Shown one piece after another: positions 1 to 6,393 of a stretch of DNA of 64,000 nt (the first letter of the stretch is position 1; the number at the start of each line of letters is the position of its first letter). Made by a program: the position numbers and the translations under genes. The notes under the pieces were generated by a model, which was given only the letters and a program-made list of their open reading frames with translations, was not told the DNA's origin and searched no databases. Source of the stretch: Limnohabitans sp. DM1 (GTDB lineage: Bacteria; Pseudomonadota; Gammaproteobacteria; Burkholderiales; Burkholderiaceae_C); the NCBI RefSeq assembly GCF_001269385.1, contig NZ_CXOO01000033.1, positions 1 through 64,000 on the forward strand, read 5' to 3'.

Positions 1-1090
1 GCGAGTCCTTGATGGCTGCAACCCTTGAACTCACCCCAGCGCTGCGCAGTGCTGCAGCATGCCGCGCCATGGGACTGTGGCGCGGTGCCCCGGCCAGGCA
101 CAAAGCGCACGCGCACCGAGCCGCCTTTGTGGGGCCACCCTCAGCGCCAAGGCCTGTGCGCCCACGTTCACCGCTGGCCTTGAGTGAGGTGGAACAGGCC
201 TTAGTGCTGCAAGCCCTGTGCAGTGAGCGATTTGCCGACACCGCGCCAGCGACAGTCCACGCCACATTGCTGGACGAAGGCACTTACCTGGGGTCGGTGC
301 GCACCATGTACCGCTTGCTGGCTGCCAACGCCAGCAGTGCCGAGCGTCGCCGCCAGCGTAGCCACCCGGTCTATGCCAAGCCTGAATTGCTGGCGACAGG
401 GCCCAACCAAGTCTGGTCGTGGGACATCACCAAACTCAAGGGTCCAGCCAAATGGACGTGCTTCCATCTCTACGTCATCCTGGACATCTTCAGTCGCTAC
501 GTCGTTGGATGGCTGATTGCGCCGCGTGAGAGCGCTGAGCTGGCCCAGCAACTGATTGCCGATACCGTGGCCCGCCACGACGTGATGCCCGGTGCGCTCA
601 CGCTGCACGCGGACCGGGGTACCTCTATGCGCTCCAAACCGGTGGCCAGTTTGTTGGTGGACCTGGACGTGGCCAAGAGCCACAGCCGTCCCTACACCTC
701 GGATGACAACCCCTACTCGGAATCCCAATTCAAGACCATGAAATACCGACCCGACTTCCCAGAGCGCTTTGGCAGCATTGAGGACGCCAGATTGCATTGC
801 CAGACATTCTTTGCCTGGTACAACGGGCAGCACTGCCACTCAGGAATTGGCCATATGACACCCCACAGCGTGCACTACGGGCTAGCGCAGGCAATGAGGG
901 AGATCAGGCAAGCAACGCTGAATGCGGCATTCGATGCCACACCCAACCGATTCAAGGGGGTCCGCCCTTGCCTAAAACCCATGCCCACAGCGGCCTGGAT
1001 CAACTCACCGCCAGCGCAAAGGAAGCCGTCTGAAACAGAACAACCCTGCACCGTAAATTTATGAAGCAAGGTGTAGCAAAGTCATTGACA
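1..1090 (+). mobile_element. IS3-family insertion sequence, right-hand part
   Basis: The window opens inside an IS3-type element. Its orfB is followed by a right end whose last bases read TCATTGACA. Read inward from that end the sequence begins TGTCA, the same five bases that begin the end of the neighbouring IS remnant at 1398. The left end and orfA lie before the window. Directly after 1090 the opposite strand is the middle of another IS orfA, so this copy appears to have inserted into an older IS. Confidence 0.75.
12..1064 (+). CDS. IS3-family transposase OrfB (DDE integrase)
   Basis: Catalytic subunit that would cut and join the IS ends; in this family it is normally made as an OrfAB frameshift fusion with the HTH protein OrfA. 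An N-terminal HTH-like region (about residues 60-110) precedes an rve integrase core. The acidic triad is visible: D in WSWDITKL, D in HADRG, and E in SESQFK, with 35 residues between the last two (DD35E). The 350-residue length is usual for OrfB. A TTG start at 9 is possible; the ATG at 12 was chosen. OrfA is not in the window, so whether the element can still move is unknown. Confidence 0.9.
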   Translation: MAATLELTPALRSAAACRAMGLWRGAPARHKAHAHRAAFVGPPSAPRPVRPRSPLALSEVEQALVLQALCSERFADTAPATVHATLLDEGTYLGSVRTMYRLLAANASSAERRRQRSHPVYAKPELLATGPNQVWSWDITKLKGPAKWTCFHLYVILDIFSRYVVGWLIAPRESAELAQQLIADTVARHDVMPGALTLHADRGTSMRSKPVASLLVDLDVAKSHSRPYTSDDNPYSESQFKTMKYRPDFPERFGSIEDARLHCQTFFAWYNGQHCHSGIGHMTPHSVHYGLAQAMREIRQATLNAAFDATPNRFKGVRPCLKPMPTAAWINSPPAQRKPSETEQPCTVNL

Positions 1091-1337
1091 CGTTCCGGCG
1101 GCACCAGGCGCTCTTAGCGGCCTCGTTCATCGCAGCTGTAGTGATCACGGCCTCAAGCCGGGCACCCGCAGACCAGGGCCGAGCTCGGGCAGGTCTGGTT
1201 TGTGCTTCTTCGCGCCAACGCTCCAGGGTTGCCTCGCTCACGCCCATCTCGCGCGAGACCACCTGCAGCGGTGCGCTCTCCGGTGGCAGCAACTTGGCTA
1301 CCGCTTTGTCTCTGAATGCTTGTCCATATCGAGCCAT
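1059..1337 (-). pseudogene. Truncated IS3-family OrfA (HTH transposase subunit)
   Basis: The first ~80 residues match an IS3 OrfA: MARYGQAFRDKAVAKLL, then an HTH with GVSEATLERWREEA, then a stretch ending in AAKSAWCRRN. After that the reading frame enters the end of the IS occupying 1-1090 and stops at a TAA supplied by it. The DNA-binding half remains, but the region leading into OrfB is gone. It runs opposite to the neighbouring OrfB, so it belongs to a different IS copy rather than being that element's own OrfA. Confidence 0.8.
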
Positions 1338-1398
1338 TTTGTTCTTTCATCGCCGCCCCCAGGTTCTAGGTTCTATCGAGGCGACAACTAGTCTGACA
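1091..1398 (-). mobile_element. Remnant of a second IS3-family element (left end plus part of orfA)
   Basis: On the minus strand the remnant starts near 1398 with TGTCAGACTAGTTGTC, about 60 bases before the orfA start, and runs to 1091 where the other IS interrupts it. Group II intron-like sequence begins immediately outside its end, so this IS probably inserted into, or truncated, the 5' part of the intron. The exact terminus and any target duplication cannot be confirmed because the other end lies outside the window. Confidence 0.65.
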
Positions 1399-1660
1399 CA
1401 GGGGGTACGGAACAGGGTAAGCCCGTAGCAGGGTCCAGCTACAATAGCCGGACAAACTTTATCGCAAGATAAAGCGAATCTGTTGCGGGTAAAAGATTGC
1501 AGAAAAAGCGAACGCTGCGTTGTAACGACGAAGATACGGGTGAAATCCCCTGACTCGAAAGAGTGCTGACTTCTGCAAGGTGGTCTATCGCAAGATAGAT
1601 TTGCTCCAACCACCCGAAGGGTATGCATCCCTTCGGGGATGCGCTCATCCTTCGGACTGA

Positions 1661-1734
1661 GCGGGCGTAGCTCAATGGCAGAGCTGAAGCTTCCCAAGCT
1701 TAAGACGAGGGTTCGATTCCCTTCGCCCGCTCCA
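1661..1734 (+). tRNA. tRNA-Gly (anticodon CCC)
   Basis: Complete 74-base cloverleaf with CCA encoded. The acceptor stem GCGGGCG pairs with CGCCCGC, the D stem is GCTC/GAGC, the anticodon loop is TTCCCAA (anticodon CCC) and the T arm is GAGGG-TTCGATT-CCCTT. The anticodon stem pairs at four positions with a G-A mismatch at its outer pair. It lies only 18 bases before the intron reverse transcriptase start, so it is inside the intron rather than flanking it. It could supply the glycine tRNA whose gene the intron interrupts. Confidence 0.9.
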
Positions 1735-1752
1735 TTCTCAACGGAGGTTGAT

Positions 1753-3384
1753 ATGGACGCAGTTCAATGCGATGTTGCCTCTGATACATGGACACACTGG
1801 CACGGCATCAGCTGGCCAGACGTGCATCGTGTAGTTGGAAGGCTGCAAATCCGCATTGCGAAAGCAACGAAAGCAGGTGAATGGCGACAAGTCAAACGCC
1901 TGCAACGACTACTCACACACAGTACCAGTGCGAAAGCCTTGGCGGTGCGTCGAGTAACTGAGAACAGGGGACACAAAACCCCCGGGGTAGACCAAGTTCT
2001 TTGGAACACCCCTGAAGCGAAATTCACAGCGATTGCGTCTCTTGGAAACAAGAAATACAAACCGCTGCCACTTCGCAGAATCCACATACCGAAAAAGAGT
2101 GGCGGGACACGGCCCCTGGGCATCCCCACCATGAAAGATCGGGCATCGCAAGCGCTACACCTGCTATCGCTTGATCCAGTAGCTGAAACAATTGGAGATA
2201 CAAACTCGTACGGCTTCCGCCGCGAAAGATCCACAGCAGATGCTATCGAACAGGTCAAAAATGACCTGTCACGAAAAGACTCTCCGCAATGGATACTCGA
2301 GGGCGACATCAAAGGTTGCTTTGACAACATCAGTCACAACTGGCTGCTCCAGCACGTTCCTATGAATAAGCAGGTGCTCCAAAAATGGCTGAAGGCTGGA
2401 TATTTTGAGGGTAATACCCTCTTCCCAACCAAGAGTGGCACACCTCAGGGCGGCATCATCTCACCGGTCTTATCGAACCTGGCATTGGATGGGCTGCAAG
2501 CAGCACTGAAAGGATTATTCCGCACAGTGCGCGAAGCAAGAGCCGCCAAAGTCAATTTCATCCGATACGCCGATGACTTCATCATCACCGGAAGCTCGAA
2601 AGAACTTTTGGAACAGCAGGTGAAGCCCCTGGTTAAGAATTTTCTTAGCCAACGGGGATTGGAGCTTTCCGAGACAAAAACCTTCATCACACATGTGACT
2701 GATGGTTTCGATTTTCTGGGATGGACTGTTCGCAAGCATGGAGACATGCTGGCCAGGAAACCTTCCAAGAAAAACGTGAAATCATTCCTGGACAAGATCA
2801 GAATCAAACTGAAAGAACTACGCACTGAACGACAAGCAGAAGTGATCTATCAACTCAACCCGATCATCCGGGGCTGGGCCAACTATCACCGAAGCCAAAT
2901 GTCCAGTAGAACGTTCGCCAAGTGCGATCATCACATTTGGGAAGCGCTCTGGCGATGGGCAAAGCGTCGGCACCCAAACAAGGGGGCACGATGGATAAAG
3001 AAACGTTACTTCAAGATCATCAATGGTCGAGAATGGCGATTCGTGGAAGGGCAAAACATGCTTCTGACTCTGAGTGGATTTACAAAGCAAGTCCACATCA
3101 AAATCAAGTCAGATGCAAACCCCTACGACCCTAACGATGAGGCCTATTTCGCAAAGCGTTTGGCTATGCGAATGAACTCCTCACTGGCGGGTCGCCGAAA
3201 ACTGATTTGGATCTGGAATTGGCAAGACGGAAGTTGTTCTCGGTGCGGTGAAAAGATCACCTGGGAAACCAAGTGGCACTTACATCACATCGTCCGGCGT
3301 GTAGACGGCGGCTCGAACAAACTGAGCAATCTTGAGTTGCTTCATCCTGACTGTCATGTACAGCACCATGTCAATAGTCGTTGA
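1753..3384 (+). CDS. ltrA: Group II intron reverse transcriptase/maturase with HNH endonuclease
   Basis: Intron-encoded protein (543 aa) that would help splicing, copy the intron RNA and nick target DNA during retrohoming. It shows RT blocks with GIPTMKDRASQ, the catalytic YADD in FIRYADDF near residue 271, and SGTPQGG. The maturase domain X is around PIIRGWANYHR near residue 375. A C-terminal HNH endonuclease spans about residues 495-540, with CSRCG, then HLHHI, then PDCHVQHH. The ATG at 1753 is preceded by a clear GGAGGT (1743-1748); in-frame codons further upstream run through the tRNA. The ORF looks intact. The closest class by memory is chloroplast-like, which is an inference. Confidence 0.93.
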   Translation: MDAVQCDVASDTWTHWHGISWPDVHRVVGRLQIRIAKATKAGEWRQVKRLQRLLTHSTSAKALAVRRVTENRGHKTPGVDQVLWNTPEAKFTAIASLGNKKYKPLPLRRIHIPKKSGGTRPLGIPTMKDRASQALHLLSLDPVAETIGDTNSYGFRRERSTADAIEQVKNDLSRKDSPQWILEGDIKGCFDNISHNWLLQHVPMNKQVLQKWLKAGYFEGNTLFPTKSGTPQGGIISPVLSNLALDGLQAALKGLFRTVREARAAKVNFIRYADDFIITGSSKELLEQQVKPLVKNFLSQRGLELSETKTFITHVTDGFDFLGWTVRKHGDMLARKPSKKNVKSFLDKIRIKLKELRTERQAEVIYQLNPIIRGWANYHRSQMSSRTFAKCDHHIWEALWRWAKRRHPNKGARWIKKRYFKIINGREWRFVEGQNMLLTLSGFTKQVHIKIKSDANPYDPNDEAYFAKRLAMRMNSSLAGRRKLIWIWNWQDGSCSRCGEKITWETKWHLHHIVRRVDGGSNKLSNLELLHPDCHVQHHVNSR

Positions 3385-3457
3385 CAGCAGAGTCTCTCGA
3401 CTCTGAGGTAATTCGAAACTGCTGCTCCATCAAACGATGGTACAGTCATGACTGCTT

Positions 3458-3532
3458 GAGCCGGATGCGGGGAAACTTGCAAGTCCGGTTCTGAGGGGAG
3501 GGACACACCGCGAGGTGTGTTCCTTACCCGAT
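3458..3532 (+). ncRNA. Group II intron domains V and VI, 3' end of intron
   Basis: Domain V is the 34-base hairpin 3458-3491. It opens GAGCCGG and closes CCGGTTC, with the usual GGGAAACTT-type segment. Domain VI follows as a hairpin with arms GGGACACACC and GGTGTGTTCC around a GCGA loop, and an unpaired A shortly before the 3' boundary. The boundary is placed after CCGAT at 3532, but it could be a few bases off because the 5' exon is not visible to test base pairing. Confidence 0.85.
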
Positions 3533-3567
3533 AAATAACGTGGGTTCGATTCCCATCACCCGCTCCA
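3533..3567 (+). pseudogene. 3' part of a tRNA-Gly gene split by the intron
   Basis: The bases after the intron form a tRNA 3' half: the end of an anticodon arm, a variable loop, a T arm GTGGG-TTCGATT-CCCAT, an acceptor strand CACCCGC and TCCA. The acceptor strand would pair with GCGGGTG, so this is not the 3' half of the intact tRNA at 1661. A terminator hairpin follows, as after a real tRNA gene. The 5' half is not seen and presumably lies upstream of the IS elements, outside the window. Confidence 0.8.
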
Positions 3568-3586
3568 GTCTCCTGATCATTCCATG

Positions 3587-3614
3587 AAGGCCCCGCAAGG
3601 GGCCTTCGGCTTTT
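3587..3614 (+). terminator. Rho-independent terminator after the split tRNA-Gly
   Basis: Perfect 8-bp stem AAGGCCCC with loop GCAA and GGGGCCTT, followed by CGGCTTTT. It shows that the split tRNA was the last part of a transcript. It also argues against the upstream ATG at 3584 as the start of the next gene. Confidence 0.8.
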
Positions 3615-3625
3615 GTATCCGCCCC

Positions 3626-4453
3626 ATGCACATCACCGTCAACGAAGAACTCAAAGCCTACATCGACCCACTCACGCCCGATGAGCACGCCTCGCTGGAG
3701 CGCAGCATCCTGGCCGAGGGCTGCCGCGATGCCTTGGTGTTGTGGGGCGATGTTCTGGTGGACGGACACAACCGCTACGGCATTTGCCAAAAGCATGGCC
3801 TGCCCTTTCAGACGGTGCAAAACACGAGATTCCAATCGATGGAGGACGTGCACCTGTGGATGATCGACCAGCACCTGGGGCGGCGCAGCGTGTCGGATTT
3901 TCAGCGCGGCGTGCTGGCCTTGCGCAAACGCGCGATTTTGGCCGAGCAGCGCACCCAGACCATCGCCGCCACGGCCAACAGGGACGCCACGCTGTCTGAA
4001 CACGCATCGCAAGAGACGCCTCAAGACATCGCGGCCAGCGGCCCCAACCCGCTCAAAAGCCGCGCCGATATTGCCAAAGTGGCCCGATTGAGCAACAGCC
4101 AGGTCGTGCAGATCGAGAAAATCCAGAAGCAAGCCGCACCAGAACTGGTGGCAGCAGTCAAAGCTGGGACGATCTCCATCAATGCCGCAGCTGCCGTGGC
4201 CAGCTTGCCCGCAGAAGAACAAAAAACAGCCGCATTGGGCGGCAAGGATGAACTCAAACAAGCGGCCAAACGCGTGCGTGAAGTGAACCGCAAAGCCCCC
4301 AAGGAAGACACCCTCACCGCCGAGAACGACACACCCGAGACGATCCAGACTTTGCGCCAACAGGTACAGGCCCTGACCGATGAAAACCAGCGCCTGCGCC
4401 AGCATGTGGCTGAACTTGAGGCCCGTTTGCAAGCCTCAAACGCCCCCCACTGA
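3626..4453 (+). CDS. ParB-like N-terminal-domain protein, orphan
   Basis: 275-residue protein with a ParB/Srx-type N-terminal domain: residues 9-60 include LTPDEHASLERSI, a glycine/aspartate segment and DGHNRYGIC. A helical middle part has an HTH-like KSRADIAKVARLSNSQVVQIEKI. The C-terminal ~40 residues are a Leu/Gln-rich coiled coil. Such proteins bind DNA, and some bind or hydrolyse nucleotide. There is no parA partner, and nothing shows whether it acts in partition, plasmid/phage maintenance or regulation. The start at 3626 was chosen because the earlier ATG lies in the tRNA terminator. It could be cargo associated with the tRNA locus. Confidence 0.7.
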   Translation: MHITVNEELKAYIDPLTPDEHASLERSILAEGCRDALVLWGDVLVDGHNRYGICQKHGLPFQTVQNTRFQSMEDVHLWMIDQHLGRRSVSDFQRGVLALRKRAILAEQRTQTIAATANRDATLSEHASQETPQDIAASGPNPLKSRADIAKVARLSNSQVVQIEKIQKQAAPELVAAVKAGTISINAAAAVASLPAEEQKTAALGGKDELKQAAKRVREVNRKAPKEDTLTAENDTPETIQTLRQQVQALTDENQRLRQHVAELEARLQASNAPH

Positions 4454-5585: not shown

Positions 5586-5703
5586 TCCAAAAACCGTCAA
5601 AAATCACTATTTTGTACCAAATTTAATCACTTGGGAATACACAGATTCAATTTTAAAATTCGGATTATTTTAATATTCAGTTAAATTTAGCAAAATTAAT
5701 GAA

Positions 5704-5728
5704 AAAAGCCACGAAATTCGTGGCTTTT
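5704..5728. terminator. Bidirectional terminator-like palindrome after scoB
   Basis: Near-perfect palindrome AAAAGCCACGAA-A-TTCGTGGCTTTT with A and T tracts on both sides. It lies 24 bases after the scoB stop codon and closes the scoAB transcript on the minus strand. Confidence 0.8.
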
Positions 5729-5751
5729 AAAAATAATCAAAACGTCCAGCT

Positions 5752-6393
<642 letters not shown>

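Follow-up and report, generated by a model that had tools for sequence, protein, structure and literature searches.

Group II introns that interrupt tRNA-Gly genes and carry a tRNA-Gly of the same anticodon: a probable natural home-and-rescue retroelement

Genomic islands integrate by means of tyrosine integrases and rebuild the split gene at their border with a short stretch identical to its 3′ part; in engineered home-and-rescue gene drives, the rescue copy is recoded. The available portion of the Islander database paper (PMC4383910) describes genomic islands that restore tRNA genes through an integrase, and tRNA-gene islands, phages and integrative and conjugative elements (ICEs) all disrupt the tRNA gene in which they insert and make it whole again. 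Group I introns occur in bacterial tRNA genes (PMC3984707) and plastid trnK harbours a group II intron with MatK (PMC4424553); as far as the accessible text of these two papers goes, both restore the tRNA by splicing and no carried tRNA is described. Here we describe a locus of Limnohabitans sp. DM1 (G000; the G, C and L numbers are our handles for genomes, contigs and loci) in which a tRNA-Gly gene is split by a group II intron that holds a second, complete tRNA-Gly. The window, that is, the whole stretch of DNA analysed, covers positions 1-64,000 of NZ_CXOO01000033.1 (C33), and its start is the contig end. With its relatives, the intron probably belongs to a natural home-and-rescue retroelement: group II introns that home into tRNA-Gly genes and carry, in domain IV, a replacement with the same anticodon.

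Each of these known systems shares a part of the design. Bacterial mobile group II introns that encode a reverse transcriptase (RT), maturase and HNH endonuclease have the same protein architecture, domains V and VI (D5-D6), a GTGCG start and pairing of the exon-binding sites EBS1, EBS2 and EBS3 with the target; they differ in that here a tRNA gene is the target and an intact replacement is aboard. Islands likewise split and restore a tRNA gene, but here a whole, non-identical tRNA lies inside the intron. The tRNA group I introns and the trnK intron are, like this one, self-splicing introns in a tRNA gene. Home-and-rescue gene drives, which break an essential gene by insertion and supply a rescue copy, are engineered, with Cas9 and in insects, in the portion available of PMC7968924; the present element would be a natural, ribozyme-based bacterial counterpart acting on tRNA. 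In the literature searched we found no bacterial group II intron interrupting or carrying a tRNA, subscription papers being mostly uncovered and an earlier report possible. The available text of PMC8919778 and PMC4424553 names no such case, the sole tRNA mentioned in the latter being plastid trnK, and that of PMC4390854 mentions group I and II introns in Bacteria in general terms only. It appears that the strategy, not the intron type, is new.

The interruption can be read at both borders. A full-model match to the D5-D6 family (Rfam RF00029, 66 bits) ends at 3532 and is directly followed by the last 35 bases of a tRNA-Gly, as a previous sequence-only reading of the window had proposed. That reading had advised looking for the other half upstream of position 1. 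It lies on another contig: the 5′ portion of L012, a homologous intron, used to search the same genome, gave the 5′ half of a tRNA-Gly(CCC) at C32:37989-38027, then GTGCGACC from 38028 and the first 520 or so bases of the intron, to C32:38549. The insertion falls exactly after tRNA position 40 (CCAAGC being the last bases of the 5′ half), in the anticodon stem, and the first base of the 3′ exon (+1), A3533, is tRNA position 41. Where GUGYG and AY are expected of group II ends, the window copy has GTGCGACC at its 5′ end and ACCCGAT at its 3′ end; other carriers begin with GTGCGA and end with ACCCGAC or ACCCTCC, and the introns of L016-L018 end in CC, not AY. By the features tested, namely D5-D6, RT-maturase, ends, and pairing of EBS with intron-binding sites (IBS), the element reads as a group II intron, probably of class IIB, chloroplast-like.

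A complete tRNA-Gly(CCC), detected by ARAGORN and by the Rfam tRNA model, ends at 1734, 18 bases 5′ of the RT start at 1753. The intron 5′ boundary being on C32, not between 1734 and 1753, this tRNA lies inside the intron, and comparison with relatives places it in domain IV, between the upstream domains of the ribozyme and the open reading frame (ORF). Bases 1405-1640 align with the same region of 15 homologous introns. The encoded protein has the Pfam domains RVT_N, RVT_1, GIIM and HNH and scores 362 bits against the group II RT/maturase model TIGR04416 (cut-off 300); the GGAGG 5′ of its start is present too in the carrier relatives inspected. The interrupted and the carried tRNA had been taken to serve the same amino acid, which can be made more exact, as both are CCC isoacceptors. 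The carried copy had also been described as no plain duplicate, and is none; its differences are not confined to the acceptor stem, 17 of 74 positions being changed.

The same arrangement recurs in other genomes. Among the best 80 RT matches, fetched from their genome contigs, 15 have an intact tRNA-Gly(CCC) just 5′ of the RT gene (ARAGORN). All 15 have a tRNA-Gly 3′ half after domain VI. In 14, GTGCGA immediately follows the 5′ half; in the remaining one, L014, a contig end interrupts the locus, and the 5′ half was located on another contig of that genome. Adding L025, the window, L169, L170 and L187 gives 20 loci with the full four-part layout, in beta- and gammaproteobacteria, 19 of them beyond the window. 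The boundary pattern matched, in 369 genomes of the class, the own genome and two full carriers (G416 and G342), and in 399 genomes of the order, the own genome, G624 (with the sequence and place of L017) and G559. The CCC boundary was seen in G416 alone among 57 genomes of its order; CCC and TCC boundaries, in G342 alone among 11 genomes of its order; and the TCC boundary, in G342 alone among 20 carrier or relic genomes. No stretch of viral contigs matched. Related RTs were found in 1432 plasmid records, 13 at 60-80% identity and 1419 below 60%.

In an RT tree, 17 carriers form one clade (support of 99 in the approximate likelihood ratio test SH-aLRT, a quick method), and 65 non-carriers fall outside. 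The tree took in neither L169, L170 and L187 nor the short L005, L006 and L009; L005, whose RT is partial (59%) and lies where a contig of G019 ends, entered the tRNA scan only. Named hosts in the carrier clade belong to Sphaerotilaceae, Gallionellaceae, Oxalobacteraceae, Nevskiaceae, Rhodanobacteraceae and Oceanospirillaceae; culturable hosts include Marinobacterium sediminicola (L028), Piscinibacter sakaiensis (L012) and Hydrocarboniphaga effusa (L023). Within the reach of their contigs, the introns of the 65 non-carriers contain no tRNA; the contigs of L034, L049, L064 and L076 start less than 450 bases before the RT gene. D5-D6 was matched in 64 of them (L054 gave no match) and in 16/16 carriers scanned. 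None of the non-carrier 3′ flanks was a tRNA-Gly among the 63 of 64 that could be read, the contig of L030 ending there. In L073, from a Ramlibacter metagenome-assembled genome (MAG), a non-carrier intron ends a few bases 5′ of an intact tRNA-Tyr gene (about 5715-5887).

In all 20 loci, the carried tRNA is complete, with all acceptor, D-stem and T-stem pairs (one of them G:T in most T stems), and its anticodon is that of the interrupted gene; the anticodon stem has 5/5 pairs in 15. G342 holds two such introns, 75% identical to each other. The first interrupts a tRNA-Gly(CCC) and carries CCC; the second (L187) lies in a tRNA-Gly(TCC) gene adjoining a tRNA-Thr, and its cargo is an intact tRNA-Gly(TCC). 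When the genome was searched with a T-arm/acceptor pattern, up to 3 mismatches being allowed, no further tRNA-Gly of either type, TCC or CCC, came to light. Because tRNA-Gly(UCC) is the only tRNA known to read GGA and no other TCC copy was found, the G342 cell must obtain it from the carried copy, by splicing, or in both ways.

The carried tRNA of L169 is identical, over 74/74 positions, to the tRNA interrupted in G342. Capture of this cargo from a previous host was considered and weakened, as it is also only 2 changes away from its own host's tRNA-Gly(TCC). Several carried tRNAs share the T-arm sequence with their own host. From these comparisons, hosts seem to supply new versions of the cargo, whose target site nevertheless remains distinct.

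In Limnohabitans sp. DM1, the carried tRNA is the only intact tRNA-Gly(CCC) found by a pattern search allowing up to 2 mismatches. An intact copy at the original site, which would have spoken against a rescue, was not seen; a suspected one on C32 was ruled out, the match being the split 5′ half. Within the pattern limits, 18/19 host genomes have no other intact tRNA-Gly of the interrupted type. The native gene is readily seen in relatives of the genus: 23/29 loci have an intact tRNA-Gly(CCC), and uninterrupted genes read CTTCCCAAGC followed by AAATAACGTGGG across the insertion point. The 3′ half in the window, AAATAACG, is the native sequence of 12/29 of these loci, and the idea that it was degenerate was dropped. 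Six relatives match the C32 flank over more than 350 bases, 15 match the window side, and L093 matches both. C32 and C33 are inferred to be adjacent because the intron continues across both and genus relatives match the flanks. The interrupted 5′ half has a T-to-A change in the D loop with respect to the genus norm; relaxed selection is possible.

Recognition of the target was examined through the exon-binding sites. In the carriers scored, EBS1 reads GCTTGG, pairing 6/6 with CCAAGC in 18 of them, and EBS2 pairs at 5-6 of 6 positions by best fit. For EBS3, 78 introns were aligned and every column filled in at least 40 of them was ranked by its complementarity to the +1 base: the EBS3 column came first, with 72/77, the next column reaching 0.64, and 0/10,000 shuffles were as good. 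L014, with an incomplete domain I (its 5′ part is on a separate contig), was left unscored for EBS and out of the intron alignments; the EBS3 ranking did without L014 and L025, and both it and the comparison of tRNA positions without L169, L170 and L187.

The carried copies are altered at this homing site. Positions 29 and 41 (41 being +1) differ between the carried and the interrupted tRNA in 17/17 loci, the next most variable position in 13/17. With all loci included, pair 29:41 is recoded in 17/20, stem pairing being kept, so that a rule of invariable 29:41 recoding, first suggested by the 17/17 rows, was weakened by L169, L170 and L187. In L018 and L022, pair 29:41 is the only difference in 74 bases from the host tRNA. 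L170 and L187 swap 31:39 instead, touching EBS1 and EBS2. Overall, the carried copies pair less well through compensated swaps in the anticodon stem, at 29:41, 31:39 or 28:42. With EBS1 and EBS3 alone, the target outpairs the carried copy in 18/19 loci, with a tie in L169; with EBS1, EBS2 and EBS3, it does so in 18/18, plus L187. The window shows the swap in reverse: the host target is T29:A41, EBS3 is T, the EBS2 candidate AAGCAA fits TTGCTT as EBS3 fits the +1 A, and the carried tRNA has A29:T41, the state targeted by other introns.

It could be that the recoding reflects shared descent from one odd captured tRNA, without selected immunity, and the carriers in the tree do form a single clade. 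We consider this doubtful. Mapped onto the RT tree, pair 29:41 shows at least 6 changes in the carried tRNA and one in the target, and the whole carried stem shows 9 states and at least 11 changes; because of these repeated changes, one odd ancestral tRNA is not enough to explain the pattern, as judged from the sequences. Moreover, L018 and L022 match their own hosts at all other positions, and in the window the reverse swap comes together with a changed EBS3 and EBS2.

The carried tRNA can also outlast the intron. It is intact in two broken introns, the window copy, split by an insertion sequence (IS), and that of Solimonas fluminis (L025), of the same design, where about 89 kb separate the carried tRNA from the RT gene and a short repeat of the tRNA 3′ end lies on the RT side. 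This would fit an integrative element whose attachment site was the 3′ end of the carried tRNA. In this contig (G104:C30; L154, L174/L025), TTCCCATCACCCGCTCCA stands on both sides of the 89 kb. In G559, contig C7 keeps only a relic of the intron 5′ border, and C27 has a carried-type tRNA-Gly(CCC) followed by the RT start region alone, the rest of the RT gene being gone; this tRNA is the only CCC copy found in the genome. Some 240 bases before this surviving tRNA (L189), a degenerate, inverted tRNA-Gly 3′ half was noted.

A self-rescuing arrangement had been suggested for the window from its letters alone. The 19 further loci, the TCC copy in a TCC gene, the recoding of the target site and the tRNA-only fossil strengthen this suggestion, as to a function that we deduce from sequences. 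The scenario would be as follows. The intron ribonucleoprotein would reverse-splice into an intact tRNA-Gly gene, breaking it, and the promoter of the interrupted gene would then read the intron. The carried tRNA would be co-transcribed, freed by RNase P and 3′ processing, and cover the loss; its release would leave an RT message starting next to its GGAGG. Recoding would protect the cargo from insertion, or splicing, by the very intron that bears it. The difference between cargo and target would make the cell reliant on the intron-borne tRNA, which would persist even after decay of the intron. As long as the intron is whole, some tRNA may also come from splicing of the interrupted gene. We infer mobility, splicing and expression of the carried tRNA from place, borders, cargo, pairing, recoding, clade and fossil, which can be read in the sequences. 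We also lean, with much less assurance, towards a gene-drive-like lineage that breaks needed tRNA genes and replaces them with a recoded, self-immune copy, EBS2/EBS3 and the cargo stem co-evolving across hosts, even with TCC, transcripts choosing between tRNA and mobile RNA, and splicing not being required.

The carried tRNA might rather serve mainly the life cycle of the element, through an RNase P cut that frees the RT mRNA, a switch between tRNA and lariat, or a structural or priming role. Its constant place beside the GGAGG of the RT gene fits this, since a cut there would free the RT message, and most trans-splicing introns are broken in domain IV, according to the accessible text of PMC4424553. 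However, such a role leaves unexplained the match of anticodons, the recoding at the homing site and the copy kept in G559 after loss of the RT. As the principal role we think it improbable, and it is compatible with rescue as a second one.

Slightly less probable still, in our view, is that the intron is made harmless by splicing and that the tRNA in domain IV is a passenger, a captured tRNA gene with no part in rescue. D5-D6 is present in every carrier scanned, the split halves can pair in the anticodon stem at all loci, and the L169 copy, with its identity to the G342 target and its near-identity to its own host's TCC gene, looks captured. But a passenger would decay and could bear any anticodon, whereas the carried copy is complete and isoacceptor-matched throughout, including TCC in TCC; it is kept where the intron is split or lost, and its differences concentrate on the positions that pair with the target. 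An integrase-type island that regenerates its tRNA, or a tandem tRNA duplication by recombination, with the intron adjacent by chance, can practically be set aside: tRNA-splitting and -restoring islands are common according to the available part of PMC4383910, but the borders here are intron ends (GTGCGA to ACCCGAC/T or ACCCTCC) within the anticodon stem, the cargo is an entire tRNA distinct in sequence, the EBS-IBS pairing fits the site, and the protein is an RT, not an integrase, with neither the tyrosine integrase nor the end repeats of an island.

Several observations weigh against the home-and-rescue reading. In 20/20 loci, 4 or 5 of the 5 anticodon-stem pairs could still be made between the split halves, so a spliced tRNA is still possible where the intron is whole, and rescue may be unneeded. 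Because tRNA-Gly(CCC) is dispensable in E. coli, the pressure for rescue in the CCC cases may be modest, and the TCC arrangement comes from just one genome (G342) of the 369 in the class. The outermost pair of the carried anticodon stem, 27:43, is missing in 5/20 loci (L014, L015, L018, L020 and the window). A promoter scan of window positions 1-3700 gave no promoter-like site, which leaves expression of the carried tRNA in the split window copy unexplained. Cutting out the tRNA would sever, in domain IV, the very RNA needed for mobility; each transcript may for this reason serve either translation or mobility. As to recognition, the EBS3 column was first spotted by eye and then ranked, with shuffles that ignore relatedness, and the EBS2 6-mers were chosen as the best fit to the target, a choice that favours the target. 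In L169, L170 and L187, A29:T41 is unchanged and EBS3 pairing is retained, and L169 loses only one EBS2-IBS2 pair. Finally, the one exception among the 19 host genomes is G099, a MAG from long reads, where an uninterrupted tRNA-Gly(CCC) with two 1-nt gaps exists as well. Bar these gaps, this copy fits the same bases as the split tRNAs of the Piscinibacter group, and a reading of the mismatch in the latter as decay was weakened.

If the home-and-rescue reading is right, a strategy known from engineered gene drives exists naturally in a bacterial retroelement, and shows by what means a mobile intron can live in a gene that is short, highly structured and needed. Read side by side with the ribozyme's EBS3 and EBS2, the pair swaps in the tRNA stem would be an evolutionary record of target recognition. 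Direct tests are opened of addiction to a mobile element, of tRNA processing versus intron mobility, and of group II intron retargeting.

The features of the window copy are collected in Table 1. The sequence-only reading had the intron extend from 1399, which was not upheld: this position is an IS junction, the bases before about 1405 are IS sequence, and the true 5′ end is on C32. The interrupted tRNA gene had also been credited with its own terminator. A hairpin is there, 3′ of the 3′ half, but terminator-like sites are about as frequent as in shuffles (5 found, 3.9 expected), which makes it weak.

Table 1. Features of the split intron copy in the window (NZ_CXOO01000033.1, positions 1-64,000).
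Feature	Position	Strand	Evidence
IS sequence splitting the intron, not intron proper	1..1404 (approximate end)		Pfam-type ORF matches
Intron: end of domain I, domains II-III, start of domain IV	1405..1660	+	Alignment; domain names by comparison
Carried intact tRNA-Gly(CCC)	1661..1734	+	ARAGORN; Rfam RF00005, 65.8 bits; own folding module in context
GGAGG, ribosome-binding-site-like, for the RT gene	1743..1747	+	Read from sequence
RT/maturase/HNH endonuclease, intron-encoded, 543 aa	1753..3384	+	Pfam; NCBIfam TIGR04416
Intron domains V and VI	3456..3532	+	RF00029, 66 bits; profile from 16 rows including the window's own
Intron 3′ end, TTACCCGAT	3532	+	Reads ACCCGAT at the border
3′ exon, 3′ half of the interrupted native tRNA-Gly(CCC)	3533..3567	+	Comparison with genus relatives
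Terminator-like hairpin 3′ of the interrupted tRNA gene	3585..3608	+	Pattern scan; weak on its own

The IS sequence starts on C32 after 38549, and the window takes up the intron again at about 1405; domains I-III, as recognised by comparison with relatives, are thereby divided between C32 and C33. Its ORFs are an rve/rve_3 transposase at 3-1064 (+) and an HTH_Tnp_1 ORF at 1059-1337 (-). GTACG, read by eye, is found at both IS borders (C32:38545-38549 and window 1405-1409), as would be expected of a target duplication made by the IS; inverted repeats were sought at one IS end and none was found. Related IS sequence (97.7% over 482 nt) is present on C32 from about 38957, after some 400 nt of other sequence, and one IS may be nested inside another. 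Because the IS sequence splits the intron, the window copy is probably no longer mobile, and normal splicing of the split tRNA gene is unlikely. The short contig C43 (L164, about 3357-3418) ends in a near copy of the IS-intron junction, 98.9% identical over 1028 bases, and the end of C50 (L165, 56320-56487) has 168 bases of the same intron, identical to C32, beside unrelated genes. These pieces may be assembly overlaps or further intron fragments.

Extra ORFs were seen between the RT gene and domain V in some relatives (L011/L012 at about 5640-5840, L023/L024/L025 at about 5690-6160), with lengths of 63, 66 and about 130-156 aa; a Pfam search of four of them gave no match. In Limnohabitans sp. 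DM1 itself, a second group II D5-D6 match lies at C80:26327-26397 (L002).

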